Source: Vallitalea pronyensis | GTDB lineage: Bacteria; Bacillota; Clostridia; Lachnospirales; Vallitaleaceae | Direction: 5' to 3' | Length of the DNA stretch: 64,000 nucleotides | NCBI RefSeq assembly: GCF_018141445.1 | Contig: NZ_CP058649.1 | Location: 6,095,001 to 6,159,000 of the forward strand | Shown here: one piece after another, positions 11,140-33,801 of the stretch | Layout of the letters: each line of letters opens with the position of its first letter | How positions within the stretch are numbered: position 1 is the stretch's first letter | Translations under genes and position numbers: made by a program | The notes under the pieces: model-generated | What the model saw: only the letters and a program-made list of their open reading frames with translations | Database searches by the model: none | What the model was told of the DNA's origin: nothing

Positions 11140-12153
11140 CTAACACTTAACGAGCACTTTCATGCCTTGCTGATCCGTATCCATGCCATCAAGTATGTCT
11201 TGTAGTTCTTCCAAAGGTGCTACTTTTGTAATGAGCTTATCAAAAGAATAGTCATTCTTAGCCACTAAATCAATGGCCAAGTCATAATCAATATCTTCAT
11301 ATACTCTTGCCCCAATTAATTCCACTTCTCTTAACCACATTTGTTTTAAGTTAACTTCTGCAGGTTGGCCGTAGATGCCCACAAGCACCACTTTACCTCT
11401 TGTTTTAACGACTTCTGTCATGACCATAGCACCTGGTTTTGAACCGGATACTTCAAAGCATACGTCGGCACCAACACCATCCGTCCATGTATTGACATAA
11501 GTTACCAAGTCTTTCTCAGTTGGGTTCACCGTATCAATACCTAAATCCTTAGCAAATCCTAATCGGAATGGGTTAATCTCGGAAATAACCACATCCGCAC
11601 CAAAGCTTTTAGCAACTAATGCTACCAAAATCCCAATAGGACCACCACCGATGACAACAGCTTTATCACCTGCTTTTAATCCAGAACGGTTCACATCGTG
11701 AACAGCTACAGCTACAGGCTCTACTAATGCTGCATTTTTTAAATCCATATCTTGTGGGATTTTATGAATGGTTGAGGCAGGTACAGTCCAGTAAGACTGC
11801 ATGGAACCATCTGTATCAACACCCATGAAGTTTAAGTTGTAACAAATATGGCTCATACCATGTTGACATGCATAGCACGCACCACATGGATCAAGAGGTC
11901 TAACAACAACTTTATCACCAATACTTAAACCGGATACATCACTTCCTACAGCCTCAATGACCCCAGAACACTCATGTCCCATAATATGTGGTTTTCCAAC
12001 TCTTTCATCCATGACACCATGGAAAATATGTAAGTCCGTACCGCATATACCTGAATAAGCAATTTCTACGGTTACTTCATTGGCTTTTGGTGCCTTTTTA
12101 CAACCTTCTACAACCGAAATCTTTTTGTTTCCTTCATATCGTGTTGCTGTCAT
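11140..12153 (-). CDS. Zinc-dependent medium-chain alcohol/polyol dehydrogenase
   Basis: A 337-residue MDR enzyme. The catalytic zinc ligands are in GICGTDLHIFHG and MGHECSGVIE, the structural zinc loop is CGACYACQHGMSHIC (four Cys), and the NAD(P) motif is VIGGGPIGILVALVAK. This resembles sorbitol, L-threonine and galactitol-phosphate dehydrogenases; the substrate is most likely a sugar, sugar acid or polyol because kduD follows. The missing TRANSPORT gene in this operon may be supplied by the RbsABC system at 17.8-22.3 kb, which shares an operator motif. AAAGGA lies eight bases upstream of the ATG. Confidence 0.85.
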   Translation of the reverse strand: MTATRYEGNKKISVVEGCKKAPKANEVTVEIAYSGICGTDLHIFHGVMDERVGKPHIMGHECSGVIEAVGSDVSGLSIGDKVVVRPLDPCGACYACQHGMSHICYNLNFMGVDTDGSMQSYWTVPASTIHKIPQDMDLKNAALVEPVAVAVHDVNRSGLKAGDKAVVIGGGPIGILVALVAKSFGADVVISEINPFRLGFAKDLGIDTVNPTEKDLVTYVNTWTDGVGADVCFEVSGSKPGAMVMTEVVKTRGKVVLVGIYGQPAEVNLKQMWLREVELIGARVYEDIDYDLAIDLVAKNDYSFDKLITKVAPLEELQDILDGMDTDQQGMKVLVKC

Positions 12154-12571: not shown

Positions 12572-13732
12572 TCAATGCCATATAATCTGTTTTTCATATG
12601 CGTTCATCAGTTGAGTTAATGCTGTTACCAATTGGGGACGGTTTGCTTTTCTTGATTTCAGATAATGCCAAATAACCGTACCTATTTCCAGCCTTTTTTC
12701 ATCATCCCCTTTTATGACGGAAGGATTAACGGCATGATTGACCGATTCATAGGTGTTGATAAAGTATCGATTTGTTTGTTGATTATTTTCTTTATTAAAC
12801 CATCGTTCTTTATAGAGGGGATGTCCATCAAAATCAACAATCATGTGATCTTGCACCTCTTTTGACGTAATCATCCTCAGAAAATCTGCTGCCATGTCTT
12901 TGTGTTTGGATTCTATGGTAATACCTAAGCCACTGCTATAGAAAATGCCATTGGTTACCTGTTCATGATGAGCCGGTATATCACAAAAATCAATCAAGTT
13001 TTTTCGGTAGCCATCCTTACTATAATTAGCATTCCCTATAATCATAGGTGTATAAACAATATCGTCTACAGAGCTCATACGACTATACAGTTCAAGCATG
13101 GACATATGAAAACCGCTTGGGTCAATATAGTGAATCAGTTCTTCAAAAAAAGCTAATGCCTCACTGACTTCTGTTTCGCCAATTATAAATGCCTCGGCAT
13201 GTCCTCTATGAAAACCACCTATATAACAGCGAAATGCATCATATAGATTCCAAGGTTTTAAGGACATCATTACCCGCATTTTATTGGGCAGTGCTTTACA
13301 AAAATGGAGTACTTCCATCCATGTTTTGGGTACATCCATTCCCAGATTCTCCATTAAATCTGCCCGATAGGCACCAACGAGAGATGTTACGGTAAAAGGC
13401 AGTCCATACTGATGCCCGCCTTGTGCGTATGCTTTAAAACTATTGCCCACGGCATGTTTCTTTAAGTTATTAATGGTACTTTCATGAATAATATCTTCAA
13501 GAGGCATCAATATACCTGTTGATATAATGGATGCCATGTGCAGGTTTTTAAACAACACAATATCATAATGATTCACATTAGCGCTAAATAACTCGCTATG
13601 ATAGGCATCCAATGAGCGATAGCACCATTCAATTCGACTATCTGGATTGTTAACTTCGAATAAATTGGATAATGCTGCTATGGTATCTGTATGCCAATGA
13701 TTATTCCAAGTTAAACCTTTTAATATGGTCAT
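12572..13732 (-). CDS. Solute-binding-protein-like protein without signal peptide (paralogue 1)
   Basis: A 386-residue protein with the fold pattern of family 1 extracellular solute-binding proteins: YDIVLFKN, GLPFTVTSLVGAYRADLMENL, PKTWMEVLHFC and SGLGITIESKHKDMAADFLRMI are the usual landmarks. Yet it starts directly with MTILKGLTWNNHWHTDTI: there is no hydrophobic leader and no lipobox Cys, and AAGGAGG four bases before this ATG supports the start. It should therefore be cytoplasmic unless exported otherwise. It shares the opening LKGxTW and a later RSLxxF/Y pattern with the protein at 24757-25908, which sits in a CoA-transferase operon. Role unknown; a cytoplasmic ligand sensor or carrier are possibilities. 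It ends in a strong terminator and seems monocistronic. Confidence 0.7.
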   Translation of the reverse strand: MTILKGLTWNNHWHTDTIAALSNLFEVNNPDSRIEWCYRSLDAYHSELFSANVNHYDIVLFKNLHMASIISTGILMPLEDIIHESTINNLKKHAVGNSFKAYAQGGHQYGLPFTVTSLVGAYRADLMENLGMDVPKTWMEVLHFCKALPNKMRVMMSLKPWNLYDAFRCYIGGFHRGHAEAFIIGETEVSEALAFFEELIHYIDPSGFHMSMLELYSRMSSVDDIVYTPMIIGNANYSKDGYRKNLIDFCDIPAHHEQVTNGIFYSSGLGITIESKHKDMAADFLRMITSKEVQDHMIVDFDGHPLYKERWFNKENNQQTNRYFINTYESVNHAVNPSVIKGDDEKRLEIGTVIWHYLKSRKANRPQLVTALTQLMNAYEKQIIWH

Positions 13733-13754
13733 TGCTCCTCCTTATCCCATGCTG

Positions 13755-13859
13755 TTAAAACAACATATCAAGTCCTTTAATAGTATTATACAGAACAATG
13801 GCCACAATCACCATTAAAATTATTTTGATGGTTTCAATTTTTTTTGTTTTCTTATGCAT
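13755..13859 (-). CDS. Possible 34-residue single-span membrane peptide
   Basis: MHKKTKKIETIKIILMVIVA... has a basic N-terminus and one hydrophobic helix (about residues 13-26). It is just upstream of the leaderless binding-like gene. The ribosome site is weak, and the region also carries the promoter of the divergent kinase gene, so it may not be translated. Confidence 0.25.
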   Translation of the reverse strand: MHKKTKKIETIKIILMVIVAIVLYNTIKGLDMLF

Positions 13860-13863
13860 TGTA

Positions 13864-13892
13864 TTTAAAAAACTTTCTAAATGGCGTATAAT
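13864..13892 (+). promoter_or_regulatory. Probable promoter of the YesM/YesN pair
   Basis: TTTAAA (13864-13869) and TATAAT (13887-13892) separated by 17 bases, about 60 bases before the kinase start. Confidence 0.45.
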
Positions 13893-13953
13893 AGAACAAA
13901 TATATGGACAAACATATAGGAGCAAATAGCGTACTCCATAAAGGTTGGTTAAC

Positions 13954-15750
13954 ATGATGAAAAAAAAGCTGAAGACATGTAAAAGAAACCTATCCATTCA
14001 AAAGAGAATAACCATCTCCTGCCTCATGGCTGGCATTATCCCTTTGCTTATTATTGGTAGTGTATGGATAGTTAACACCTTACGCGCATCAAAGGAAAGT
14101 TATTTAACATTAAGTGAATCTGCCTTGCATCATATAGACATAAGATTGCAATCCCTTGTTGAAATGGCTGAATCAACTGCTTTGGAAATAGCCAATGACC
14201 CCATCATTCATCATGCATTAACCCATGAAGCTGTTGATGACGCTATAAGCAACGTCTATGACATAGATACTTATCTTCATCACAAGCAGACTTACAATGA
14301 TCATCTATCGGGTATCTATATCCTAAGTCAGAACCTAACTGCTTATGGAAGTCACCATGAAGAAAGGACTCATGATGATGTTACACAGGCCTGGTGGTAT
14401 CAACGTATTAAAAAGACCACTGAGCCTACTTGGTTCTCCACACCTACCCATGCCTTAGCTATAGAAACTAATGATAACATAGCTATATCCCTCGGTGTTC
14501 CTATTGTTCATAAAGAAAACAGTGAACTTCTAGGTATCGTATACATGGACATGGACATGAAGGTCATGGATGACATCTTACAATACCCAATGGATAACAT
14601 GGAACAGATTATTGTTCTAGATGATCACCATACTATGATGATGGGTTCTAATGGTATCCATGATAGGGATGCACGAACCATCAAGAATGCTTTGGATCTG
14701 GCAAAGGATTATGAGCCTATAACCCTTACAATAAATGATCAAAAAAAACAACTCCTAAGAAAACCCCTGCCCATCCACCATTGGAGCATCATTGGCATTG
14801 TATCTCCTAACCCTATGGATACAAACAACACGTTGGCTATTATCTTTCTGATATGCCTTGTTGTTCTTATCATCGTACTGACTTACTATGTTTCAAAACG
14901 AATAGCAGGAACCATAACAACGCCCATCCACCATATGCTCCACCAAATGAAAGCAGTGGAATCAGGTCATCTGGATGTACATGCAAAGGTCTATTATAAC
15001 GATGAAATGGGAGCGTTAACCAAAGGGTTCAACACCATGACCAAACATCTCACCAAGTCCATGAAAACCGTTGTTCAGGAACAGCAGCAACTTAGAAAAT
15101 ATGAATTTAAAGCCCTTCAATCCCAGATTAATCCCCACTTTTTGTACAACACACTGGATTCGGTGGTCTGGCTTGCCAGAATGCAGCAATACAAAGATAT
15201 TATTGATGTGGTAACCTCCATGACAAGGTTATTTCGAATCAGTTTAAGCCGGGGCAAACATATCATTACCATTGAAGAAGAAATTGACCATGTGACCAGT
15301 TACTTAATGATTCAAAAATATCGCTATCGGACACATTTTGATTATGATATTCGTGTATCGGAAGATATCTACCAATACAAAACCTTAAAGCTGTTGTTAC
15401 AGCCTCTTGTAGAAAATGCCATTTACCATGGTATCAAATTAAAAAGAGATGGAGGACATATAGCCATAGAAGGTTACGCATCACAGGATAAGATCATCTT
15501 CAAAGTGTCTGATACAGGACTTGGCATGACTAAAGAAACCCTTCATGCTATTCATCAATCTTTTGAAACCAATACAGACAGTGGTGTCACCATGTACGGT
15601 ATTAAAAACGTTCATGACCGAATCAAACTATACTTCGGCAACAACTATAGTCTGACATACGAAAGTGAACTGGGAAAAGGAACCACTGCCATTGTGACCC
15701 TGCCAAAATATATGGGAGATGAAAAAGATGCTAAAAACAGTTATCATTGA
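13954..15750 (+). CDS. YesM-type sensor histidine kinase
   Basis: A 598-residue membrane sensor. One membrane helix (about residues 22-42) and a second (about 297-318) bracket an extracellular sensing domain; a HAMP domain follows (ITTPIHHMLHQMKAVESGHL). The phosphoacceptor is His395 in QSQINPHFLYNTLDSVVW, the LytS/YesM H-box, and the ATPase domain has LLQPLVENAIYHGIKLK and DTGLGM. Such kinases pair with AraC-type receivers to control sugar transport genes. The start at 13954 has AAGG nine bases upstream; a TTG at 13945 overlaps that site. Its 3' end overlaps the regulator gene by 23 bases, so the two are translationally coupled. Confidence 0.92.
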   Translation: MMKKKLKTCKRNLSIQKRITISCLMAGIIPLLIIGSVWIVNTLRASKESYLTLSESALHHIDIRLQSLVEMAESTALEIANDPIIHHALTHEAVDDAISNVYDIDTYLHHKQTYNDHLSGIYILSQNLTAYGSHHEERTHDDVTQAWWYQRIKKTTEPTWFSTPTHALAIETNDNIAISLGVPIVHKENSELLGIVYMDMDMKVMDDILQYPMDNMEQIIVLDDHHTMMMGSNGIHDRDARTIKNALDLAKDYEPITLTINDQKKQLLRKPLPIHHWSIIGIVSPNPMDTNNTLAIIFLICLVVLIIVLTYYVSKRIAGTITTPIHHMLHQMKAVESGHLDVHAKVYYNDEMGALTKGFNTMTKHLTKSMKTVVQEQQQLRKYEFKALQSQINPHFLYNTLDSVVWLARMQQYKDIIDVVTSMTRLFRISLSRGKHIITIEEEIDHVTSYLMIQKYRYRTHFDYDIRVSEDIYQYKTLKLLLQPLVENAIYHGIKLKRDGGHIAIEGYASQDKIIFKVSDTGLGMTKETLHAIHQSFETNTDSGVTMYGIKNVHDRIKLYFGNNYSLTYESELGKGTTAIVTLPKYMGDEKDAKNSYH

Positions 15751-17362
15751 TGATGAGGACTTAATACGAGAAGGCTTAGAATCCATGATTCCATGGAAAG
15801 ACATGGGTTTTGAACTGGTTGGGTCTGCAAAAGATGGTGAAGAAGCCATTGGCCTATTGCAACGGACACATCCTGATGTGATTATAACGGATATTCGTAT
15901 GCCTTTTATGACGGGTCTTGAATTAATTGAATATGTGAAGCCTATGCTTCCTCATGCTTTTATTATCATCATCAGTGGCCATGATGAATTTCATTATGCG
16001 CAAAAAGCCTTGCAGTTAGGTGTCTATGATTTTATTCTTAAGCCCTTTGATTTGGAATATTTTCAAAAGATTCTTTCAAAAATAAAGTATGACTACACCT
16101 TAAACAAAGTAAACACCAAGTCCATACCTGCAGAAGACCTTTTTCATTTACAGACACGGGTCATTGAATCCATTATGCTGCATAAACTGGCTATGGTTGA
16201 TGCAGCCAGTAAATTATCCTCTTATGCCTTAACGGATATTCTAGATCACCATTATGCTGTCATCTACCTTCAAATTGACAATTATCATCTTACCATTGCC
16301 GATTATACCTTTGACCAAATCAACGAACTGCATCGTCATTTTTATGGTTTAATCAAGGACGTCACACCACCATCCAAAAAACAATTTATCTTTGAGGGCA
16401 ATGGAGGCGATGCCATACTGGTTATTAACGGTATAACCTCTAACGAAGTCGTCATGCGAAAGGACAAGATTATCCATCAATTAAGGCAGAAATTGGATAC
16501 ACAATTTAAGCACACCATTACTATTGCCTATAGTCGCATATTAAAGCATCTTGAAAGTCTGCCAACTGCCTATCAGCAAGCTTCCCAAGCTGCTAATCAA
16601 CGTTTTGTTAAAGGCTATAATCGTACCATTTCCTATGAGGAGACGCCACGTATATCCCAAAACAGCAGCCAAGAAATGCGTTATGCCACCATTGGATTCC
16701 AACAGGATGAATTTGTTCACTACATGAAAAATGAAGAGGCGCAAGCCATAACTACCTATATGGACAACATTATAGACAACATTGTGGATAGCGGTTATAA
16801 CTTATCCATCTATATCACCATGTTTGCTACAACCATATTTACTGAGATTATCAGTCTCCTTAACACCTATAATTTATCCATCAGCGATATATATGATGAC
16901 CCGTTATTACTCTATAAAAAGCTTGCTCTATCACAAAATATTTTTGACATCCAGCCTACCATATATGACCTGCTTATGCAATCCGCTGACTATCTCCAAA
17001 ATCAAAACGCAACGTCTTATGACACCCGCATTAAAGAAGCCATTGTCTATATTGAGAAGCACTATAATGCTTATGATATAACCTTGCACCAAGTAGCTGA
17101 AAAAGTAAACATGGGAGTATGCTATTTCAGTACCATGTTCAAAAAAGAAACAGGTAAATCCTTTATTAATTACTTAACAGATATACGGATCCACCATGCT
17201 AAGAAGCTCTTTGAAACAACGGATTATATGACTTATGAAATCTCCTACATGGTAGGGTATAATACGCCTACCTACTTTAGTACCTTGTTTAAAAAGAAAA
17301 CAGGCATTTCACCTTCCAACTACCGGAACAGCCTGAATAAAAAGAACAACAAAACTACCTAA
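15728..17362 (+). CDS. YesN-type response regulator with AraC DNA-binding domain
   Basis: A 544-residue regulator. The receiver domain is intact: acidic pair in VIIDDED, phosphoacceptor Asp55 in VIITDIRMP and Lys in FILKPFD. A middle region of about 300 residues has no recognised motif, and the C-terminal about 105 residues hold two helix-turn-helix units of AraC type (ITLHQVAEKVNMGVCYFSTM and YEISYMVGYNTPTYFSTLFK). The start at 15728 is preferred because GGGAG lies nine bases before it; the ATG at 15719 is only two bases from that site. It probably activates the neighbouring convergent RbsABC operon or the leaderless binding-like gene. The last codons form one arm of a terminator. Confidence 0.93.
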   Translation: MLKTVIIDDEDLIREGLESMIPWKDMGFELVGSAKDGEEAIGLLQRTHPDVIITDIRMPFMTGLELIEYVKPMLPHAFIIIISGHDEFHYAQKALQLGVYDFILKPFDLEYFQKILSKIKYDYTLNKVNTKSIPAEDLFHLQTRVIESIMLHKLAMVDAASKLSSYALTDILDHHYAVIYLQIDNYHLTIADYTFDQINELHRHFYGLIKDVTPPSKKQFIFEGNGGDAILVINGITSNEVVMRKDKIIHQLRQKLDTQFKHTITIAYSRILKHLESLPTAYQQASQAANQRFVKGYNRTISYEETPRISQNSSQEMRYATIGFQQDEFVHYMKNEEAQAITTYMDNIIDNIVDSGYNLSIYITMFATTIFTEIISLLNTYNLSISDIYDDPLLLYKKLALSQNIFDIQPTIYDLLMQSADYLQNQNATSYDTRIKEAIVYIEKHYNAYDITLHQVAEKVNMGVCYFSTMFKKETGKSFINYLTDIRIHHAKKLFETTDYMTYEISYMVGYNTPTYFSTLFKKKTGISPSNYRNSLNKKNNKTT

Positions 17363-17392
17363 TGGACATGGGAATGACCAAAAGGTAGTTTT
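17351..17392. terminator. Bidirectional terminator between the regulator and the Dabb gene
   Basis: Stem AAAACTACC (17351-17359) / GGTAGTTTT (17384-17392), followed by T residues on both strands. The left arm includes the last three sense codons of the response regulator. Confidence 0.65.
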
Positions 17393-17415
17393 TATTATGA
17401 ATCACATCACTTAGA

Positions 17416-17748
17416 TTATTTTCTGATGACTACTGTATCTTTTTCGAGAAAATCCTTTACTTCTTTGACCCAGACTTCTTCCACAAAACCTTTTTTATTG
17501 ACTTGATCCCAATGGTTTGGATGGGCTTTATACGCTTCTAATTGTTCTTCGTTATCAAATCTCATTTCCAATTCATAGTCGTAGGGATTGCTGTCATTTA
17601 TAATTTCTAGAATTCTAAAATCCTTCACCCCAGGAATACAGGCCAGCATATCCCAAGCTTTAACCATAAAGGCTGCTTCTTCGTCTGATCCCTTGTCATG
17701 TTTTAATATAAATGCAGCACTATGGATAATCGGTTTATTTACTTTCAC
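17416..17748 (-). CDS. Dabb (stress-responsive alpha/beta barrel) domain protein
   Basis: A 110-residue dimeric ferredoxin-like fold protein. Landmarks are IIHSAAFILKHDKGSDEEAAF at the N-terminus, IPGVKDFRILEIIN in the middle, and DYELEMRFDNEEQLEAYKAHPNHWDQV, the classic Dabb ending. The start is GTG at 17748 with a GGTGGTG site upstream; an ATG nearby is out of frame and short. It is the last gene of the RbsABC operon, 39 bases after a permease gene, which suggests a role in the metabolism of the imported compound. Some Dabb proteins act on cyclic or sugar-like substrates, but no activity can be assigned. Confidence 0.75.
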   Translation of the reverse strand: MKVNKPIIHSAAFILKHDKGSDEEAAFMVKAWDMLACIPGVKDFRILEIINDSNPYDYELEMRFDNEEQLEAYKAHPNHWDQVNKKGFVEEVWVKEVKDFLEKDTVVIRK

Positions 17749-17786
17749 TCATTTCACCACCATTCTTTATTATTTTACATCTAATG

Positions 17787-18782
17787 TTATAGGGCTAAAT
17801 CAGATTTACTGCTGAATTTCATGGCTAAACCATTACCAACAAAGATTAGAATACCTTGTATGATGAGCTGGTCATAAAATGGAATGCCCAGCATGTTTAA
17901 TCCATTTGTCATGATAGCCAATAACCCAACGCCCAGAATTGTCCGTGATATGGAACCTTCTCCACCATTCATATTGGTTCCTCCAAGAACAACACCGCCG
18001 ATAATCATTAATAAAATGGTATCGCCAACTCCTGGAAGAGCATTACCAAGATTAGCTATGCTAATCATACCAGCTATGCCGGCAAATACCCCCGATAGAA
18101 CATATACACTCATTTCAATTTTCTTCGTGTTTAGTCCAGCATACTTTGCTGATATCCTGTTACTGCCAAATAAGATAACCTTTCTTCCCCATGTGGTCTG
18201 TGTTACCATAATAGAACTAACCACAAGTAATATAAGGCTTACCATGGTCACATAAGGAATACCCAGTAATTCACCAAACCCAAAATCAATCATCCCTCTT
18301 GGCGTTCCTTTAATAGCAATTCCCCGAGATAATACAAAAGCCATACCCCGAGCTACTAATTGTGTTCCCATTGTTGTTATGAATGGTGTTAAGCCACAAT
18401 AGCCTACCAGCATGCCATTAATCAACCCAAAGGTTAATCCAACCCCAATGGCTGTCAGCAATCCTAGAATGATTTGACCAGTAGCTGCCATGACAATACC
18501 TGACAGGATAGCGCTGGCACTGATAACCGTTGAAATGGATAAATCAATGCCGCCTGTGAGTAATACCATGGTTTGACCAATGGCTGCAATCATAATGACG
18601 GCATTGGTTGCCATGATGGTTTTCATATTGCTACCTGTCAAAAAATAAGGAGCTAATAGTGAAAACGTAACAAGCAAGCTTAATATAATAGGGATGGTGG
18701 GATAACGTCTGAATGCAGATACTATATAACGAATGATTTTAGATTGCGGTTTGTTGGTCATGCTATACCTATCCATGTTCAT
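17787..18782 (-). CDS. ABC sugar transporter permease (RbsC family), second permease
   Basis: A 331-residue inner-membrane permease of the ribose/autoinducer-2 type with about eight to ten helices. Family landmarks: GGIDLSISTVISASAILSG, NGMLVGYCGLTPFITTMGT and GVVLGGTNMNGGEGSI. It lies directly downstream of the binding-protein gene (18 bases). Two different permeases in one operon imply a heterodimeric channel, as in YtfT/YjfF or LsrC/LsrD. An in-frame ATG at 18776 is spaced better from AGGTG and may be the true start. Confidence 0.92.
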   Translation of the reverse strand: MNMDRYSMTNKPQSKIIRYIVSAFRRYPTIPIILSLLVTFSLLAPYFLTGSNMKTIMATNAVIMIAAIGQTMVLLTGGIDLSISTVISASAILSGIVMAATGQIILGLLTAIGVGLTFGLINGMLVGYCGLTPFITTMGTQLVARGMAFVLSRGIAIKGTPRGMIDFGFGELLGIPYVTMVSLILLVVSSIMVTQTTWGRKVILFGSNRISAKYAGLNTKKIEMSVYVLSGVFAGIAGMISIANLGNALPGVGDTILLMIIGGVVLGGTNMNGGEGSISRTILGVGLLAIMTNGLNMLGIPFYDQLIIQGILIFVGNGLAMKFSSKSDLAL

Positions 18783-18800
18783 TACACCTAATTTCCTTTA

Positions 18801-19763
18801 CTATTTTGCACCCCAGATGGTATCTTTATTGGCTTCAATGTTTTCTGTTGTATAGAAGATACCTGGAATGACAACTTTTTCCTCTATTTCTTCACCTTTT
18901 ATTAAGGCGATTGCATGTTGAGCCGCTGTTTCACCCGTTGTTTTTAGGTCCATCACAACAATACCGTCTGCAATACCATTCGCTGTTGCCTCATAACCAT
19001 CGTTACTGCCATTAATCCCACATACAATAACATGACCTTCTTCACCAACCTTGTTCATTTTTCCTAAATCGGTGAGTACCGTCTCAATACTGGGTATTTG
19101 TGTATCTGTTGCGGCAAAGATAGCTTTAATATCAGGATTGGCTTGGAATGCATTTTGCGTTGCTGACAATGCTTTGGCTGAATCCCAATCCGTCGGCATG
19201 GCCACGATTTCAACATGAGCTAATGCCGCCATGGCTTCGTTAAAACCTTTGCTTCGATCAATACCATTCTGGTCATTTAAGGCACCCAATAATTCCAGAA
19301 CAACCACTTTACCATTTTCATCTTTCAGTTGTTCTGCCATGTATGTACCTGCTTCAACACCATCAGCAATGGAGTCTGGACCAACAAAACTATCAATGGC
19401 TTCGCTTTCTGGTAAATCCCGATCATAAGCTACAACGGGTATCTTTGCTTTTTTAGCTGCAAGGAGAGCAGTCTCTATGGTATTTTGATCTACAGCACAT
19501 ACTAAAATAGCGTCTACTTTCTGGTTAATCAGTGATTGAATCTGTGCATTTTGTGTTTGTGGGTCACCATCGGCTACGACTTCAATGTACGAATAACCAT
19601 TTTTATCAAGTTCAGCTTTTGCAGCGTCAATAACACCGACCCTGCTTTCAAATAGCTGGTCAACGGAAATACCAATGGTTTTCTTGGTTTCTTTCTTACT
19701 ACACCCACCCATAACTGCTACGAACAACATGACAACAAGTATTGTCGCTACTACTTTCTTCAA
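18801..19763 (-). CDS. Sugar-binding lipoprotein (RbsB family)
   Basis: A 320-residue periplasmic-binding-protein I family lipoprotein. The signal peptide MKKVVATILVVMLFVAVMGGC ends in a lipobox Cys, so it is anchored to the outer face of the membrane. Family landmarks are IGISVDQLFESR, NQKVDAILVCAVDQNTIE, VVAYDRDLPESE and AIFAATDTQIPSIE. It would deliver a monosaccharide or similar ligand to the two permeases. Translation starts at TTG (19763) with AAGGAGG eight bases upstream; the ATG five bases earlier is out of frame. Confidence 0.93.
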   Translation of the reverse strand: MKKVVATILVVMLFVAVMGGCSKKETKKTIGISVDQLFESRVGVIDAAKAELDKNGYSYIEVVADGDPQTQNAQIQSLINQKVDAILVCAVDQNTIETALLAAKKAKIPVVAYDRDLPESEAIDSFVGPDSIADGVEAGTYMAEQLKDENGKVVVLELLGALNDQNGIDRSKGFNEAMAALAHVEIVAMPTDWDSAKALSATQNAFQANPDIKAIFAATDTQIPSIETVLTDLGKMNKVGEEGHVIVCGINGSNDGYEATANGIADGIVVMDLKTTGETAAQHAIALIKGEEIEEKVVIPGIFYTTENIEANKDTIWGAK

Positions 19764-19814
19764 ACATATCTCCTCCTTTTATATAGACATATCTCTATGT
19801 CTTAATTGATACCA

Positions 19815-20813
19815 TTAAACCTCTAAACCAACACCCTGAATCCTTAGTGCCTTTTGCAGATGTAACTGTTTCTTTTGTCGTTCTATGGAGACTTTATCAA
19901 CGATAACCGCCGTTAACAGTACCGTTCCTTTAACAATGTCATAGATATAAGGGGAAGCTTGGATGAGATTTAGGCCGTTATCAATGAGTACTAAAAAAAT
20001 CGCGCCTACAGCACTACCAATAATCGTACCTGAACCCCCTGACAGCTTGGTACCTCCCAGAACAACTGCTGCAATGACTGTGAACTCAATGCCAATACCC
20101 ATACCAGACTGTAACCCTCCAACACGAGCTAGCAGAATAAGAGCGGAGATACTGGTTGTAATACCCCCTAGAAAATAAGCCCCCATGGTTATCTTTTTAA
20201 CGGGCAGATTGGATTCCCTGGCAGCCTCTACCGAATTCCCAAGAGCCATCACATAGATGCCAAATCTTGTTTTTCCAAGTAGATATAACCCTATGAAAAA
20301 GATAAGGGCAAATAGTAAGATGGGTACAGGAATCCCGTATATTTTTCCATTGCCTAGAAAGCCAAATGCTCTCGGTACAGGGATGTTTTGGGCTGATGTA
20401 AGGTGAATGGCCATTCCCCTGTACATGGTGTAGGTGGCCAAGGTTGTTATCAATGGACTCATACTGAATGTTACCACTAAAAAGCCATTCAACGTACCTA
20501 ACAGGGAAGCACACAAAATTGCCGCCCCAAAAGCCAAGGGAATAGGGGTACTGATTTCAACGAGCTTAGCAAATAATGCTGCTGTAAAATATAAGATTGC
20601 CCCTACAGATATATCAATACCACTTGTGAGTATAATAAACGTCATGCCCATTGCCATAATACCTGTAACACTGGCTTGAATTAAGACCCCTTGAATATTG
20701 GACACACTAAGGAAAACAGGGGATAAAACAGCCAGCAGAAGTGCTAATAAAATGGTTGCTGCTGTAATAGCAACCCACTTACCTCTAAACAACAGATTCT
20801 TCATGATCGCCAT
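19815..20813 (-). CDS. ABC sugar transporter permease (RbsC family), first permease
   Basis: A 332-residue permease with GMTFIILTSGIDISVGAILYF, NGFLVVTFSMSPLITTLATY and AAVVLGGTKLSGGSGTI, all typical of RbsC. The first 29 bases overlap the end of the ATPase gene, so translation is coupled. The start at 20813 has AAGGAG seven bases upstream; a frame-compatible ATG two codons earlier sits on top of the ribosome site. It forms the transport channel with the second permease at 17787-18782. Confidence 0.92.
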   Translation of the reverse strand: MAIMKNLLFRGKWVAITAATILLALLLAVLSPVFLSVSNIQGVLIQASVTGIMAMGMTFIILTSGIDISVGAILYFTAALFAKLVEISTPIPLAFGAAILCASLLGTLNGFLVVTFSMSPLITTLATYTMYRGMAIHLTSAQNIPVPRAFGFLGNGKIYGIPVPILLFALIFFIGLYLLGKTRFGIYVMALGNSVEAARESNLPVKKITMGAYFLGGITTSISALILLARVGGLQSGMGIGIEFTVIAAVVLGGTKLSGGSGTIIGSAVGAIFLVLIDNGLNLIQASPYIYDIVKGTVLLTAVIVDKVSIERQKKQLHLQKALRIQGVGLEV

Positions 20814-22329
20814 ATGCATTCTCCTTCGTTTTCTTTTCGTAGGCAGAACTTGCTGCTAGAGATATTATGTTGACTGCATCATAATCTTTTCGATGAAAAC
20901 TGCCCACTAAATGTCCTGTTCGCATGACCAAAAGCCGATGGGTTAAGTCAAGGAGTTCCGGCAAATCAGACGATACAAGCAAAACAGCTGCACCCCTCTT
21001 AGCCAAATCCACAATCATGTTATGGATATCAAATTTTGCCCCAATATCAACACCTTTTGTGGGCTCATCAAAAATAATGACCTCTGGTTCTGTAGCCAGC
21101 CACCTACCGAGAAGTACTTTCTGTTGATTACCGCCGCTTAAATTACTTATTCTGGATTCCATGTGAGGCAGTGCTACCTTCATGCTGTCAATGACTGTTT
21201 GGGACATCTCTGTTTCTTTATTAAAACCCAATCCTTTTATCTTTCGCCTAACAAAACCACCTATATTGGCCGCTGTGATATTTTCCCGAACTGAGCGATT
21301 GGAAAAGATACCTCTGGTCTTCCTATCTTCTGTCACGTAACACACATGGTGATGCATCATATTGGCAATGGTCACAGGTGAGATCTGCTCACCTTTTATG
21401 TACACACATCCCTTGGCTTTTCTAATACCAAAGATGGCTTCTGCCACTTCTGTTCTGCCAGCTCCCATTAAGCCTGCTATGCCAAGGATTTCTCCTTTTC
21501 TAACAGTAAAATTAATATCATGAAAATCATAAGATGATAAGTGTTCAACCCTTAAAGCCTCTTCATCTTCTGGTTCATGCAGTTCAATTTTTGATTCTGC
21601 AAGGGTCCGACCAACCATTAAGGCTTCTAATTGGTTTCTAGGCATCTTATCGATATCTCCTTGCCCCACTTGTTTCCCATCTCTTAAAACAATGTACCGA
21701 TCACTAACTTTGTAAATCTCATCCATAAAGTGGGATATAAAAATCATGGATACACCTTTTGCTTTTAAATTATCCATAATATGAAATAGTTTAGCTCTCT
21801 CTGGCGCAGTCAAGGACGTGGTTGGCTCATCTAATATTAAGAGTTTATCTGCTCTTAATAAGGCTTTTGCAATTTCCACCACCTGTTGCTTCCCTGCTCC
21901 CAATGATTCTACTGTGGCTTTTGTATCAATATCAATGCCTAAATAAGCCAGTTGTTCTTGGGCTATGTCATCAGCTTCTTTCCAGTTCACACGGGCAGCC
22001 GACCCAGGCAGCTGTGTCATGCATATATTGGCTGCAACCGTTAAGCTCTGAAACAAGCTTAGCTCCTGATGAACAGCTGATATACCATGGTCATAACCTA
22101 CAATATGCTCCACCTTTTCACCTTGAATGAACACCTCACCAGCATCTGGTTTGAGCAATCCGCATAACATATTCTTTGTTGTTGATTTCCCCGCCCCATT
22201 TTCACCAACCAAAGCAATAATCTCTCCAGGATAGATATCAAAAGAAACCCCATCAACGACTGTTTTTCCTGAAAATGATTTTTTTAGGTTCCTCACCGAT
22301 AGAATCGGAGGATCTACACCATTTGACAT
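20785..22329 (-). CDS. ABC sugar transporter ATPase (RbsA/MglA family, duplicated)
   Basis: A 514-residue ATPase with two fused nucleotide-binding domains. The N-terminal half has Walker A GENGAGKST, a signature region LGAGKQQVVEIAKALL and Walker B LLILDEPTTSL. The C-terminal half has the usual degenerate Walker A (GLMGAGRTE) but a good signature LSGGNQQKVLLGRWL and Walker B VIIFDEPTKGVD. It powers uptake through the RbsC-type permeases encoded next. It is the first gene of the operon, preceded by a consensus promoter and a palindromic operator. Confidence 0.95.
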   Translation of the reverse strand: MSNGVDPPILSVRNLKKSFSGKTVVDGVSFDIYPGEIIALVGENGAGKSTTKNMLCGLLKPDAGEVFIQGEKVEHIVGYDHGISAVHQELSLFQSLTVAANICMTQLPGSAARVNWKEADDIAQEQLAYLGIDIDTKATVESLGAGKQQVVEIAKALLRADKLLILDEPTTSLTAPERAKLFHIMDNLKAKGVSMIFISHFMDEIYKVSDRYIVLRDGKQVGQGDIDKMPRNQLEALMVGRTLAESKIELHEPEDEEALRVEHLSSYDFHDINFTVRKGEILGIAGLMGAGRTEVAEAIFGIRKAKGCVYIKGEQISPVTIANMMHHHVCYVTEDRKTRGIFSNRSVRENITAANIGGFVRRKIKGLGFNKETEMSQTVIDSMKVALPHMESRISNLSGGNQQKVLLGRWLATEPEVIIFDEPTKGVDIGAKFDIHNMIVDLAKRGAAVLLVSSDLPELLDLTHRLLVMRTGHLVGSFHRKDYDAVNIISLAASSAYEKKTKENAYGDHEESVV

Positions 22330-22345
22330 TTCTCACACTCCTTTC

Positions 22346-22365
22346 GTTAATTGTCAACAATTAAC
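22346..22365. promoter_or_regulatory. Palindromic operator before the RbsABC operon
   Basis: Perfect arms GTTAATTG and CAATTAAC separated by TCAA. It lies about 12-30 bases downstream of the expected transcription start, a roadblock position. The 12-base centre ATTGTCAACAAT is identical to that of the palindrome 12287-12320. Confidence 0.65.
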
Positions 22366-22383
22366 AATGTTTCCAATAAGTAC

Positions 22384-22412
22384 ATTATAGACCCCAATGT
22401 ATTCATTGTCAA
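22384..22412 (-). promoter_or_regulatory. Consensus sigma-A promoter of the RbsABC operon
   Basis: On the minus strand TTGACA (complement of 22407-22412) and TATAAT (complement of 22384-22389), both perfect, separated by 17 bases. Such a strong promoter implies control by repression. Confidence 0.8.
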
Positions 22413-22532
22413 TATGCACAAAAAAGAATGAAGATATCTCAAAAGAAAGTTAATAATTCACAATACTTTCATAAGATAACCCTATCAATAGGTAGGATAG
22501 GGTCGCCTCCATTTTAGCATGAAAGCGACAAA

Positions 22533-22585
22533 AGCAACGAGAGTTGATTAACACCCTATATGGTATACACTCAACTTCCGTTGCT
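22533..22585 (-). terminator. Terminator-like hairpin after the CoA-transferase operon
   Basis: Arms AGCAACGAGAGTTGA and TCAACTTCCGTTGCT pair at 13 of 15 positions; the minus strand continues TTTTGTCG. The 347-base gap 22330-22676 holds this hairpin and the promoter and operator of the next operon. Confidence 0.6.
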
Positions 22586-22676
22586 GGTTTTTATATTTCT
22601 ATTCTTTATCCAACGATTATAATATGGGCGTAGACGGACAATGGGCGCTACATGGGATGATACGAATTAGCGGTTC

Positions 22677-23894
22677 TTAACATCTACTTGTATATACCAC
22701 AGACCGGTCAATCATGGACTGAATCACATGCTCATCAACCCCATACCTCTTAAGTATTGCAACACTATGCTCACCAACCATGGGTGGCGGCTGTGTAATA
22801 TCAGCTGGTGTTTCACTCATGGTCACAGCAGGACCTACCACCTTAATTTCACCTGCTTCTTCATGGTGATAGGTGGTCATCATCTCCATATGTTTCACTT
22901 GTGGATCATGTTCAACATCCCGAATATCCTTAACCTCAGAAACCCACAAATCTTCATCAAGCATCACTTTCAGCCAATGGGCTTTTGATTTTTTTGATGT
23001 TATGGCTTCAATTGCATGAAAGATGGTATCTCTGTTGTTGTATAATGCCTCTTGGGTTTGATACTTAAGGAGTTCATCGTTGCCTAATACTTTCACAAGC
23101 TTTGTAAAATCATTCATGGCAATGGTGATGTAGCCATCTCTACATGCATAAACACCATAAGGCGCTTCTAAAAAAGGTAACCCAATACCTGAATTCGGCT
23201 TATTCACTTGGATATCTGTATTCATGATGGTCAGCATCTCTTGGTTCATAAATGCTAACATGGAAGCAAATAGATTCACCTGCACTTTCTGGCCTAATCC
23301 TGTTTTTTCACGATAATACAAGGCCGTTAAAATACCATAGACCATATGATAGGCTGCTAGATGATCCGCAATACCTGTTCCTAATGGTGTTGGCGGCGAA
23401 CCTTTTCGGCCAATTAAACTCATAATACCTGATAAGCCTTGAGCCAATAAATCTTGACCTGGCCGCTCCGCATAAGGTCCTGTTTCACCAAAACCCGAAT
23501 TACTGGCATAGATAATACCCTTGTTCAACTGCCGACAAACATCATACCCGTAACCCAGTTTTTCCATGACACCTGGTCTGAAATTATGAATTATGACATC
23601 TGATTGTTTTACCATGTCATAGATGACCTCTTTTACTTGAGGATCTTTCAAATCCATGGATAGGGATTGTTTATTTCGATTCCATGCAAGAAACGTTGGC
23701 GAAACCTGACCATGGATGTATTGGTTGCCAAAAGTCATACCTCGATAGAGATCACCGGTTTCTATACGTTCAATTTTTATCACTTCTGCTCCCATATCCC
23801 CTAACATCATGGCCCCATAGGGACCAGCTAAGAGTTGACTAAAATCAAGGATTTTTATGCCTTTTAAGGCACCGTTAACATGTGTCTCATTCAT
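22677..23894 (-). CDS. Class III (CaiB/BaiF family) CoA-transferase, downstream gene
   Basis: A 405-residue cytoplasmic CoA-transferase. The N-terminal ILDFSQLLAGPYGAMMLGDMG and VIKIER are diagnostic, and the catalytic Asp148 is in RPGQDLLAQGLSG. The family moves CoA between carboxylic acids through an aspartyl-CoA intermediate; known members act on formyl/oxalate, carnitine, succinyl and bile-acid CoA esters. It is the last gene of a four-gene operon, 11 bases after the crotonase gene. The partner acid cannot be predicted. A second, clearly different member starts the operon. Confidence 0.92.
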   Translation of the reverse strand: MNETHVNGALKGIKILDFSQLLAGPYGAMMLGDMGAEVIKIERIETGDLYRGMTFGNQYIHGQVSPTFLAWNRNKQSLSMDLKDPQVKEVIYDMVKQSDVIIHNFRPGVMEKLGYGYDVCRQLNKGIIYASNSGFGETGPYAERPGQDLLAQGLSGIMSLIGRKGSPPTPLGTGIADHLAAYHMVYGILTALYYREKTGLGQKVQVNLFASMLAFMNQEMLTIMNTDIQVNKPNSGIGLPFLEAPYGVYACRDGYITIAMNDFTKLVKVLGNDELLKYQTQEALYNNRDTIFHAIEAITSKKSKAHWLKVMLDEDLWVSEVKDIRDVEHDPQVKHMEMMTTYHHEEAGEIKVVGPAVTMSETPADITQPPPMVGEHSVAILKRYGVDEHVIQSMIDRSVVYTSRC

Positions 23895-23905
23895 CTGCTA
23901 TCCCT

Positions 23906-24670
23906 CTACTTAAAATTTGGTTGTCGTTTTTCTTGAAAAGCTTGTAAACCTTCTCTACTGTCCTCTGTTGTGAAACTGAAAGCAAATAAATCATTTTCAT
24001 ACTGTAAGCCCATGTCTAAGGGTGTATTTTGCGAATTGATTAAATCCTGCTTTGCAAGCTGAAGTGCCATGGGGGATAATGCAGTCATGGCTTTTGCCAT
24101 ATCCTCTACAAAGGCATCAATGTTTACCAAACTGACCACATCGTTAATAAAACCTAATCGCTGACCCTCAACAGCATCAACCATTGCACCTGTCAACACA
24201 AGTTTTGCCGCTTTATTATAGCCTATATTGCGGGCTAAAATCTGAATGAGGCCACTGCCTGAAATCCAGCCGTGCTTCACTTCTGACGCTGCAAATTTTG
24301 CTTCCTCCACCGCAACACGAATGTCTGATGCCAATACAAGCTCGAATCCTCCACCAAGGGCATAGCCCTTTATCTTTGCAATAACAGGTTTCCTGATGGA
24401 ACGAATAGCTTTACAATAATCTTGACGGTTCCTCAGTTCCCAAGGATTCCCGTATTGGTGAAGCAACTTGATATCACTGCCTGTTGAAAAACTCTTTTCA
24501 CCATCACCGGATAAGACCACAACCCTGACGTTGGCATCCTTGTTAACCTTGTCTGCTACCTCTTGCAGCTTCTCAGCCATAGCTTTTGTGATGGCATTCA
24601 TTTTATGAACACGGCTTATGGTGATATACCCTACATGCTCCATTACCTGATATACAATATCGCCTTCCAT
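23906..24670 (-). CDS. Enoyl-CoA hydratase/isomerase (crotonase) family enzyme
   Basis: A 254-residue crotonase. The oxyanion-hole region reads FSTGSDIKLLHQYG and the second one KGYALGGGFELVLASDIRVA. One conserved acid is present in FAASEVKHGW, but the position of the second hydratase Glu (in the AMEMVLTG region of rat crotonase) is Lys in AAKLVLTG, so plain enoyl-CoA hydration may not be its reaction; isomerase, hydrolase or lyase activity is possible. The start at 24670 has GAGGAAGG upstream; a GTG nine bases earlier overlaps that site. It lies between the leaderless binding-like gene and a CoA-transferase in one operon. Confidence 0.88.
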   Translation of the reverse strand: MEGDIVYQVMEHVGYITISRVHKMNAITKAMAEKLQEVADKVNKDANVRVVVLSGDGEKSFSTGSDIKLLHQYGNPWELRNRQDYCKAIRSIRKPVIAKIKGYALGGGFELVLASDIRVAVEEAKFAASEVKHGWISGSGLIQILARNIGYNKAAKLVLTGAMVDAVEGQRLGFINDVVSLVNIDAFVEDMAKAMTALSPMALQLAKQDLINSQNTPLDMGLQYENDLFAFSFTTEDSREGLQAFQEKRQPNFK

Positions 24671-24756
24671 ATGATACACCTTCCTCTACTCTCATATTTT
24701 ATATTACGTCGTCTATATTATAGATAGAAAACAATGCAATAGACATGATCATCCAA

Positions 24757-25908
24757 TTAATGGGTATACACGTCTAAAAATAACCCATTCAATGTATGGA
24801 TAAACGCCTCATCATCTTTTCTTTCATCCATAAAGAACCCTCGAATCATGTTTCCTGCTTTTTCCTGAAAGCCTATGTACCCGTCAAATCGAGGACGCAT
24901 GGAACCAAGATCCATGGTGGTTAGCGTATCATGATAAAAATTCATGGCTTGTTCATTCACATGTTCATCTAACCACGCGCTTCTGTAACCAGGCTGTCCA
25001 AAATGATCCACATAACCATGGCATTGGAATTCCCCACTTAGCGTGAACCCAAGGAATTGTGCAGCTATTTCAGGATGTTTGCATTGGGATGAAATGGCAA
25101 GGCCTACACCGCCAATCATGCTCCCATTAGGTCTACCTGTATCCGAAGGCATGGCATTAAACTTAATACGCCTCTTGGCAAAGCCTTCTAGGGAATAGGT
25201 ACTGTATCCATAGACCAAGGGACAATAAACCAATTTGTCGTCATGTGCCATTTTATCCAGTAATTGAATGGGATCCATATCATAAGAATCTTGGTCCACA
25301 ACACCCATCAATTTTCTTAGAAGTTGAAGTACACGGACACCGACATCAATGCTGAGGGGTTGACCATTACTCCAGAATGGCTCTGGTGATAATTGAGCGC
25401 ATAGCGAAAAAAAGCTTGAATAGGCATGAATGGGTACAAATGGTATCCCCATTACGTATCCATCAGGCAGGTATTCCCCTAACCTCAATACATCTTGCCA
25501 TGTAACAGGTGGCAGGATATCCCATGTATCCAGTAAGTCTTGGCGATAGGCGCTAAACTGAGCCGCAGCATCTGCTGCCAAAGCCCATTGGTGGCCTTTC
25601 CAATAATAGCTCTTATGACTCAGCCCTACACTGTTTTTTTCTTGGTCGGCGATGAATGATGTTGGAAGCAGTTCATCTAATGGCAGCAATAGCTTCTGTG
25701 CATAAGCCGTACCAATATGTGGATGGTCAATCATCATAAAGTCATAGGCTGCTGCCAGCTTGTTAAGCGGGTACAATTCAAAATCTGCTAAAGACCGGGC
25801 ATCCCATGTTATGTCAACCTTTGAATGCAGCTTTTGAAATGCGCTAGCTGCTTTTATAAGCGGCTTCAAGCCTCGGTCATGAGACCAAGTCATGCCTTTT
25901 AATTTCAT
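24757..25908 (-). CDS. Solute-binding-protein-like protein without signal peptide (paralogue 2)
   Basis: A 383-residue protein resembling family 1 extracellular solute-binding proteins (AAYDFMMIDHPHIG, AAQFSAYRQDLLD, PPVTWQDVLRLGEYLP, GGVGLAISSQCKHPEIAAQFLGF). It begins MKLKGMTWSHDRGLKPLI, with GGGAGG seven bases before the ATG at 25908, so there is no export signal or lipobox. It sits inside an operon of CoA-transferases and a crotonase, with no permease or ATPase gene. I recall similar leaderless proteins next to CaiB-like genes in other bacteria, but know no proven function. Cytoplasmic binding of a CoA-acid substrate or product is a reasonable hypothesis. Confidence 0.7.
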   Translation of the reverse strand: MKLKGMTWSHDRGLKPLIKAASAFQKLHSKVDITWDARSLADFELYPLNKLAAAYDFMMIDHPHIGTAYAQKLLLPLDELLPTSFIADQEKNSVGLSHKSYYWKGHQWALAADAAAQFSAYRQDLLDTWDILPPVTWQDVLRLGEYLPDGYVMGIPFVPIHAYSSFFSLCAQLSPEPFWSNGQPLSIDVGVRVLQLLRKLMGVVDQDSYDMDPIQLLDKMAHDDKLVYCPLVYGYSTYSLEGFAKRRIKFNAMPSDTGRPNGSMIGGVGLAISSQCKHPEIAAQFLGFTLSGEFQCHGYVDHFGQPGYRSAWLDEHVNEQAMNFYHDTLTTMDLGSMRPRFDGYIGFQEKAGNMIRGFFMDERKDDEAFIHTLNGLFLDVYTH

Positions 25909-27292: not shown

Positions 27293-28510
27293 ATGATTCA
27301 CGTGTTGATTGTTTCTGAAAAAACCTTAACCCGAGTGGGTATCAGCTACTCTATTTTTTGGGAAAAGTTTGGCTATACCATTATTGATCAAGCGGCTTCT
27401 CTTTCCGAAGCTTTGGTTAAGATCGAAGCTTCTAAACCCAAATTAGTGTTTGTTGAACTACCTTTTAAAACCGAGGATAATACCTCTGTTATAGAACACT
27501 TAAAATCTTACCCTTGTCAGTTGGTTATTTTAAGTGCTGATATCCATGCTTTTAATCATGCTTTCCTCCATAACCTAGGGGTATTGGATGTGATGTCAAC
27601 GGAAAACTTTCAAACCGATGATCTCATCGACCGCTTGAATCACTACAGTCAGACCCTATTTACCCTTCCTGAAGAAAACGCCAACCTTAAACTCGACATT
27701 CAAAAAGACATCCTTAACGCAGCTAAACAGCAGTTCTTAAGAAAACTGTTATGCGGCTGGAATAAAAAAAATGTTTTATCTCCTGCTACCTTACAGCACT
27801 ATGGGATTCAATTTCCCTATAATCAATTCATTATACTGATGGTTAAATTAGAAGGGATGTCCCAAACGGAGGATATACAAACATTAGCTCATTTTTTTAA
27901 ACACAAATTTATCAATAAAAATGTCTATCTCTGTGAAAATGGATTAGATGAGTTGGTCTGTATCTATAATGTGGACTTTTCACGTCATATGAACCCACAT
28001 GATATCATTCATCATTTCAAAAGCCATGTGACCCACTTAATGGAGGTTAACTTTCAAGTACCTTTTTCTGTCTACGCAAGTAATGCCTACATTGGTGTTG
28101 CTAATATTGCAACGGCTTATAAAGAATGTTTCCAAAACTATCAACAAGCCATGAAGCCCATGAAGAACAACGATTCTACGGAAAATATTTATATTAAAAC
28201 CATTAAAGCATACATTGAAAAGCATTATGCTGACGATATAAAAGCTGATGATTTAGCTGTTGAAGTGAATCTAACCCCTTCTTATTTCAGTACATTTTTC
28301 AAATCAGAAACGGGACAAACCTATAAGAATTACCTCATTGATTACCGTTTAACCAAAGCCAGAGAATTACTGACAACCACCACACTGCATGTTGTGGAAA
28401 TAGCACAGCTTGTTGGTTATCCAAATGAAAATTATTTTTCTAAATTATTCAAGCAGAAAATGGGCATGTCCCCAACCCAATACAGAAAATCCCCTCCTAC
28501 TAATGGGTAG
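27293..28510 (+). CDS. AraC-type regulator with a degenerate receiver domain
   Basis: A 405-residue protein with the order of a YesN-type response regulator, but the receiver has lost its chemistry. The acidic pair is replaced in VLIVSEKTLTRVG, the phosphoacceptor Asp by Glu in LVFVELPFK, and the conserved Lys by Thr in LDVMSTENF. The C-terminal about 105 residues hold two intact AraC helix-turn-helix units (IKADDLAVEVNLTPSYFSTF and VVEIAQLVGYPNENYFSKLF). No kinase gene accompanies it. It is divergent from the CoA-transferase operon and also precedes the GH2 genes, so it may control either. The Glu substitution may mimic phosphorylation, or the domain may bind a ligand. Confidence 0.88.
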   Translation: MIHVLIVSEKTLTRVGISYSIFWEKFGYTIIDQAASLSEALVKIEASKPKLVFVELPFKTEDNTSVIEHLKSYPCQLVILSADIHAFNHAFLHNLGVLDVMSTENFQTDDLIDRLNHYSQTLFTLPEENANLKLDIQKDILNAAKQQFLRKLLCGWNKKNVLSPATLQHYGIQFPYNQFIILMVKLEGMSQTEDIQTLAHFFKHKFINKNVYLCENGLDELVCIYNVDFSRHMNPHDIIHHFKSHVTHLMEVNFQVPFSVYASNAYIGVANIATAYKECFQNYQQAMKPMKNNDSTENIYIKTIKAYIEKHYADDIKADDLAVEVNLTPSYFSTFFKSETGQTYKNYLIDYRLTKARELLTTTTLHVVEIAQLVGYPNENYFSKLFKQKMGMSPTQYRKSPPTNG

Positions 28511-28643: not shown

Positions 28644-28649
28644 TATGAT
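28644..28649 (+). promoter_or_regulatory. Extended -10 box before the GH2 genes
   Basis: TGTTATGAT, a TGn-extended -10 element, lies 29 bases before the first GH2 start. The -35 region is poor, which would fit activator-dependent expression. Confidence 0.35.
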
Positions 28650-28677
28650 TGTTTTATCACAAGTTAAGGAGGATAAT

Positions 28678-31041: not shown

Positions 31042-31096
31042 TCTATCAAACATGGGTGTAACCCATGTTTGAGTTATGCTGAAAGAAAGGAGTTTT

Positions 31097-33565: not shown

Positions 33566-33621
33566 CTAAATATCTATAGCAACGATATCCTTATGACGTT
33601 TTAGTCAATGAGTCTTAAAAT

Positions 33622-33789
33622 GGAGCTGCCTCATTAAAGCAAAATAACGTCAATATCGTAGGAAACTATAAGAGGTTAAGCGAAAAGCGCAGGCCCTCTA
33701 AACATGGACGTTTAGGGGCCTGAAAAGCTTAACCTCTTATCGTTTGCAAAAACTTCTAGCCAGTATAATTGCTTTGATGAGACAGCTCC
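33622..33789. repeat. Interspersed palindromic repeat, family B, copy 3, with nested insertion
   Basis: Outer arms (33622-33642 and 33769-33789) begin GGAGCTGCCTCATTAAAGCA and end with its near-complement. The flanking interior matches copy 1 (3182-3260): AACGTCAATA on the left and AAAACTTCTAGCC on the right. Between these, about 90 extra bases form a second palindrome (33669-33739). It lies between two convergent genes and may also stop transcription. Confidence 0.8.
33669..33739. repeat. Palindrome nested inside the family B element
   Basis: Arms TAAGAGGTTAAGC (33669-33681) and GCTTAACCTCTTA (33727-33739) are perfect, with an inner stem CAGGCCCTCTAAAC / GTTTAGGGGCCTG around a six-base loop. 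It is absent from copy 1 of family B and looks like an insertion of another small palindromic element. Confidence 0.7.
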
Positions 33790-33801
33790 TTATGATGAGG
33801 A

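Follow-up and report, generated by a model that had tools for sequence, protein, structure and literature searches.

Two genes in a 64,000-nucleotide stretch of contig NZ_CP058649.1 (the window), from the 6.3-Mb genome of Vallitalea pronyensis, encode proteins that resemble the sugar-binding components of ATP-binding cassette (ABC) transporters and lack an export leader. We refer to them as P0001 and P0002, and to the family of the latter as SBPA (Table 1). Both proteins scored above the Pfam curated cut-offs for SBP_bac_1 and SBP_bac_8, and they share 27% identity over 336 aligned positions. The gene for P0002 lies directly between those for a class III (CaiB-type) coenzyme A (CoA)-transferase and a crotonase, an arrangement already proposed in an earlier interpretation of this DNA made without database searches (the sequence-only reading). 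A second class III CoA-transferase belongs to the same operon, and these two are the only members of their class found in the genome. At P0001, no CaiB neighbor is present; the gene stands back to back with a sensor kinase/regulator pair, and it is probably a monocistronic transcription unit, since a terminator-like hairpin follows directly at its 3′ end.

The description of both proteins as sugar binding in type, leaderless, and fixed at their starts by ribosome sites was borne out. AGGGAGGATTGACC-ATG precedes P0002 and AAGGAGGAGCA-ATG precedes P0001, with a clear ribosome site in each case, and a leader cannot fit in frame in either gene because only six codons separate the preceding in-frame stop from the LKG motif. 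As a control, we used the other SBP_bac_1 genes of the genome, in which this family matched in 87 places, 85 of them besides P0001 and P0002. We compared the 5′ ends of 40 of these, taken from among the higher entries in the match list but leaving out several with a match starting deep inside the profile or an unusually long frame. A hydrophobic leader is encoded in all 40, with best 9-residue hydropathy values of 2.43 to 3.87, and 36 have a lipobox. The corresponding hydropathy values were 1.5 for P0001 and 1.13 for P0002, judged here and below by thresholds of our own rather than by a signal-peptide predictor. Neither protein has the signal peptide or lipobox typical of extracellular solute-binding proteins of ABC transporters.

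Structure prediction and comparison with periplasmic binding proteins gave P0002 a complete, two-lobed sugar-binding-protein fold. Its AlphaFold model, built with 45 relatives supplied (mean pLDDT, 95.8; pTM, 0.93), found its best match in the PDB in the sulfoquinovose-binding protein SmoF (7yzu; Z, 38.1; root-mean-square deviation, 2.6; 364 residues aligned) and matched a trehalose/maltose-binding protein at a Z of 38.0. Because residues 2 to 381 of the model align with residues 4 to 387 of the SmoF chain, P0002 is, as modeled, a whole binding protein that begins where the mature transporter protein begins. The model of P0001 (pLDDT, 91.1; pTM, 0.89) has its elements in the same order. SBPA resembles the sugar-type ABC binding proteins in fold over its full length and in Pfam family, but it differs from them in having no leader, no cognate permease encoded beside it, and a CaiB partner. 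D61 and R338 of P0002 align with an Asp and an Arg that we take to be ligand contacts in SmoF and the trehalose/maltose-binding protein, whereas an Asp that presumably contacts sugar in known binding proteins is Ala115 in the alignment and the Trp of their LGGW loop is Val or Thr. Binding-protein-like folds also occur in cytoplasmic enzymes, namely, MqnA/MqnD and Thi5. SBPA shares with these the use of such a fold inside the cell but not a Pfam family, as P0001 and P0002 matched SBP_bac_1/8 only, with no match to those enzyme families at an E value of 0.001.

SBPA is a widespread family. A profile scan of a collection with one genome per species matched at least 590 stretches, of which the best 80 loci (L014 to L093) were kept for the survey below; a scan of genome contigs with a single sequence gave no match. 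These 80 loci belong to Bacteroidota, Bacillota, Spirochaetales, Verrucomicrobia, Acidobacteria, Chloroflexi, Dormiibacterota, and Gammaproteobacteria, and plasmid records add SBPA from Alphaproteobacteria and Streptomyces; phage records searched with one SBPA returned no match. Among genomes closer to V. pronyensis, P0002 had matches in 1 of 299 from its phylum (its own genome), in 3 of 59 related genomes, its own included, and in none of five others from its genus. The leadered homologs with permeases that the sequence-only reading had named as a counterexample were not found. By the hydropathy test, none of the 81 SBPA copies could gain a hydrophobic leader from an upstream start, and 51 of them have an in-frame stop no more than 17 codons before the motif. 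The same test found no leader in 49 of 49 members of a second leaderless lineage, SBPB; an SBPB-class match in L090 (82 bits) was set aside as a leadered lipoprotein. In annotated plasmid records, SBPA proteins either bear the name of an ABC transporter substrate-binding protein, extracellular or for carbohydrates, or are missing from the gene table. The label “extracellular solute-binding protein,” given to many of these genes, is probably wrong for this family.

A survey of homolog neighborhoods for CaiB-like partners found CaiB in 78 of the 80 loci, adjacent to SBPA on the same strand and within 200 bp for 71 of the 81 copies. Of 65 SBPA-to-CaiB junctions, 53 were within 20 bp and 33 overlapped, although start codons were picked nearest the junction, which biases these figures towards closeness. 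Annotated plasmid regions held a CoA transferase in 14 of 14 cases, directly adjoining the SBPA gene in 12; one crotonase gene lies between the two in a plasmid region of Rhizobium sp. Q54, and two genes do in a Streptomyces plasmid record. The CaiB sequences fall into two clades, with clade A directly downstream of SBPA in 56 of 56 cases and clade B directly upstream of SBPB in 47 of 84. The Asp of the PGxD motif, putatively catalytic as in formyl-CoA transferase, is kept in all 151 CaiB proteins examined; the tree and this count left out eight CaiB open reading frames (ORFs) of at least 1,800 bp (fusions and frames open upstream). Five loci (L054, L063, L072, L079, and L084) encode two CaiB domains in one ORF of ~790 to 850 codons. 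In the Bacteroidota family to which L081 belongs, 151 genomes were compared, and SBPA was present in 34 and CaiB in 34: both occurred in 33, SBPA only in 1, CaiB only in 1, and neither in 116. Every one of the 33 genomes with both encodes two CaiB. One genome (G493) has a weak CaiB match (158 bits) and no SBPA. SBPA is also as conserved as CaiB, with a mean identity over 43 loci of 0.657 compared to 0.650 and 0.694.

The surroundings of this pair point to sugar catabolism, a context that the sequence-only reading had missed. Seed searches of the 80 loci found MaoC in 56, crotonase in 19, and at least one of them in 73, together with Gfo/Idh/MocA genes in 54, SBPB-class matches in 50 (including the off-family L090), IclR in 40, GH106-like proteins in 24, RhaT in 19, and GH29-like proteins in 3. 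Representative neighbors are alpha-L-rhamnosidases, major facilitator superfamily (MFS) transporters, and aldehyde dehydrogenases, alongside which sugar dehydrogenases, lactonases, mutarotases, symporters, and glycosidases occur. In the crotonase variant, an aldehyde dehydrogenase is present in 15 of 19 loci. A batch of 82 ORFs from 11 loci, chosen among the 153 unclassified ORFs of those 19, included 11 aldehyde dehydrogenases, 7 sulfatases, 5 Agarase_CBM proteins, 5 GH43-type proteins, and 2 GH16 proteins. CUT1 and CUT2 permeases, of varying kinds, were found in three loci each, and loci with such permeases either have a separate binding protein (e.g., Roseibium L005) or are contig fragments. 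TRAP transporter genes lie directly beside CaiB, crotonase, and SBPA in Rhizobium sp. Q54 (L155) and in L022, and as acid transporters they fit an acid substrate. Given the sugar-related neighbors, the acid is probably sugar derived, and by this gene context such acids are probably the substrates of the CoA-transferases. In five loci (L016, L030, L039, L058, and L060), we also observed RuBisCO-like proteins encoded no more than 10 kb away from SBPA.

Table 1. Features of the V. pronyensis window
Feature	Position	Strand	Basis
KduD-type short-chain dehydrogenase (SDR)	10351..11112	-	TIGR01832 kduD above cut-off
Zinc-type alcohol dehydrogenase (ADH)	11140..12153	-	50-53% identity to ADH in SBPA clusters (e.g., L032, L044, L004)
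Terminator-like hairpin just 3′ of P0001	12541..12565	-	11-pair stem and T-run, consensus scan only
P0001, divergent leaderless solute-binding-fold protein, 386 aa	12572..13732	-	Pfam SBP_bac_1/8; AlphaFold
Sensor kinase and AraC-type response regulator, divergent from P0001	13945..17362	+	Kinase: His_kinase, HAMP, HATPase_c; regulator: translation
CUT2-type sugar ABC transporter: two permeases, ATPase, own lipoprotein-like binding protein	17787..22329	-	ORFs
Second class III CoA-transferase of P0002 operon	22677..23894	-	Pfam CoA_transf_3, 362 bits; PGxD Asp kept
Crotonase/enoyl-CoA hydratase family protein, directly downstream of P0002	23906..24679	-	Pfam ECH_1, 178 bits
P0002, leaderless solute-binding-fold protein (SBPA family), 383 aa	24757..25908	-	Pfam SBP_bac_1/8; AlphaFold
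Class III (CaiB-type) CoA-transferase, directly upstream of P0002	25921..27069	-	Pfam CoA_transf_3, 329 bits; PGxD Asp kept
AraC-type regulator, divergent from CaiB operon	27293..28510	+	HTH_18
Two GH2-type glycosidases and two large Agarase_CBM-matching proteins	28645..40068		Pfam

With its crotonase, two CaiB proteins, GH2 enzymes, and two Agarase_CBM proteins, the window fits the crotonase-type SBPA loci; no aldehyde dehydrogenase was identified among the window genes scanned. Its KduD-type SDR is ~43 to 44% identical to the SDR that adjoins ADH in SBPA clusters, and clusters with genes like both window dehydrogenases occur in Persicobacter and Flammeovirga. The earlier statement that neither binding protein has a permease gene holds only in part: no matching, cognate permease lies beside either P0001 or P0002, but a CUT2-type transporter is encoded between them, with its own binding protein (18801-19763) of a different class (Peripla_BP_4 in Pfam). 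The labels of its permeases and ATPase come from translations read by eye and from their use as search seeds. The Agarase_CBM proteins (33802-40068), one of which also matches Big_2, hint at the use of agar or porphyran, and the kinase/regulator pair might control sugar genes.

We asked whether P0001 shares the features of SBPA. Across 46 diverse aligned sequences of the SBPA family, 45 columns are invariant, many of them polar; P0001 keeps 22 and is changed at 23, including H10, R12, D61, H62, D113, and R338. Its best relatives are SBPA proteins: in 10 genomes and the plasmid records, the best matches, several of them at SBPA places, are 24 to 29% identical, and no closer orthologs were found there. 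P0001 is a divergent relative that probably binds something other than the SBPA ligand, perhaps serving a regulatory task. The proposal of a cytoplasmic binding protein dedicated to CoA-ester metabolism is well supported for P0002, with its CaiB pairing; for P0001, the missing CaiB neighbor and the lost residues make the link weaker.

Known systems offer partial parallels. In carnitine metabolism, the CaiB and crotonase/MaoC toolkit activates an acid with CoA, moves water across the alpha-beta bond, and recycles the CoA. SBPA loci resemble CaiB-CaiD in encoding a class III CoA-transferase with the putative catalytic Asp alongside a hydratase, which may likewise act on CoA esters with recycling of CoA, but they differ in having CaiB of two types, binding proteins that lack a leader, and neighbors from sugar catabolism. 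The match to PRK03525, the crotonobetaine-specific model of L-carnitine CoA-transferase, is far below its cut-off. Two-subunit class III CoA-transferases are represented by BbsEF and SmtAB (structure 9fn0 is of the BbsEF type). They are similar in that two different CaiB polypeptides are encoded together, which in the five SBPA loci noted above are fused; we know of no binding-protein partner in either system. The oxidative L-fucose and L-rhamnose pathways employ a mutarotase, dehydrogenase, lactonase, dehydratase, SDR, and FAA hydrolase, gene types that accompany SBPA in part (L034, L068, L108, and L156) and are not in the window. To our knowledge, these pathways need no CoA, whereas SBPA loci add a CoA-transferase and a hydratase, even beside the annotated L-fuconate dehydratase of Martelella. 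L034 and L068 encode a lactonase, SDR, and FAA hydrolase, and no MR/MLE, UxuA, or IlvD match was found among their neighbors examined. We considered CaiB, MaoC, and SBPA as a plain replacement for an aldonate dehydratase and dropped this idea because an annotated dehydratase lies near the module in Martelella and MR/MLE genes are present in G404 and in Roseibium-type loci. MR/MLE genes also occur somewhere in 11 of 11 genomes searched.

We tentatively favor the view that SBPA, having lost export, is a cytoplasmic substrate-binding partner of class III CoA-transferase in the breakdown of sugar-derived acids, a serious possibility that stops short of being probable. SBPA would derive from the binding proteins of sugar-type ABC transporters. 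An imported sugar would be oxidized to a sugar acid by a Gfo/Idh/MocA-type or aldehyde dehydrogenase and a lactonase, and SBPA would hold this acid, or its sugar end, and hand it to its own CaiB. CaiB would then place CoA on the acid, MaoC or crotonase would add water to the CoA ester or remove it, as CaiB and CaiD do on carnitine, and the CoA would then be transferred to a further acid molecule. That there are two CaiB types, both with a leaderless partner (SBPA or SBPB) of their own, could reflect two acids or two steps, and this one-to-one correspondence points to the binding protein as the source of specificity. A broader version, in which SBPA is a specificity subunit of CaiB, SBPB is its parallel, and the two mark a widespread, undescribed route for handling the sugar acids of algal and plant polysaccharides as CoA esters, is conceivable and somewhat doubtful.

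Several observations weigh against such a partnership. CaiB is not strictly required, as one genome (G509; L107, 8796-11764) keeps an SBPA (374 bits) with no CaiB match in the genome; the gene lies beside a mannonate-dehydratase-like gene and an SDR, which would also allow SBPA to act in sugar-acid metabolism as an enzyme or simply as a binding protein. L049, a contig fragment, and L059 also lack CaiB in the stretch examined. No fusion of a solute-binding protein with CaiB was seen when looked for, although CaiB-CaiB fusions exist, and shared operon history alone would explain much of the co-occurrence. Furthermore, the Martelella module adjoins an annotated L-fuconate dehydratase, and in G404 the gene run that contains the module includes an MR/MLE gene; since both keep ordinary dehydratases nearby, the module is no simple replacement of the dehydratase step.

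The main rival is that SBPA and SBPB are themselves enzymes acting on the sugar or sugar acid, for example, as isomerase, lactonase, or dehydratase, while CaiB and MaoC or crotonase perform neighboring steps. The many polar residues among the 45 invariant columns, a degree of conservation equal to that of the operon enzymes, the CaiB-free SBPA of G509 with its mannonate-dehydratase-like neighbor, and the existence of cytoplasmic enzymes of the same broad fold (MqnA and Thi5) all agree with this. However, catalysis by SBPA would not require that every CaiB lineage be so strictly paired with a particular binding protein, and the whole-length match to sugar-binding proteins, with only transporter-type families in the Pfam scan, also speaks against it; we consider an enzymatic role unlikely, though not far-fetched. 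A complete ligand-binding fold, IclR-type regulators near half of the surveyed loci, and the two-component and AraC regulators of the window would also suit a cytoplasmic buffer or sensor that stores, protects, or signals a labile sugar acid without acting with CaiB. Yet the conserved partner is CaiB and not a regulator, and the frequent overlap of SBPA and CaiB genes suggests a fixed stoichiometry, making this role improbable.

Sugar transporters near many SBPA loci, including that of the window, raise the question of whether SBPA is exported without a classical leader to serve them. The transporters vary (RhaT, MFS symporters, TRAP, CUT1, and CUT2) while CaiB is constant, and a separate binding protein with a leader belongs to the CUT1 systems; export is accordingly very improbable. 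We give even less credence to chance, that is, to a pair of transporter genes left without leaders by decay or truncation. The changes at 23 invariant positions of P0001 could be read in this way, but both frames are intact behind clear ribosome sites, and for P0002, decay is contradicted by leaderless relatives with 37 to 61% identity and the same neighbors across many phyla.

The fold is known, and so is the use of related folds in the cytoplasm. What appears to be new is that sugar-binding proteins without a leader are paired, in a dedicated manner, with class III CoA-transferases, and we found no description of this in the open-licence papers searched. A precedent for handling a sugar acid as a CoA ester is found in PMC6365646, where catabolism of deoxyribonate through CoA esters is proposed, with a CoA-synthetase, a dehydrogenase, and a thiolase; the term “solute-binding” is absent from that main text. 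Altogether, a protein from transport appears to have taken on a new task within the cell, in the breakdown of sugars. If the partnership of SBPA and CaiB is real, binding proteins would gain a role inside metabolism, and a family of CoA-transferases known to act on small acids would acquire a component that binds carbohydrate. It would also point to a CoA-dependent path, so far uncharted, by which many soil and marine bacteria use sugars of the L-rhamnose, L-fucose, or agar type.

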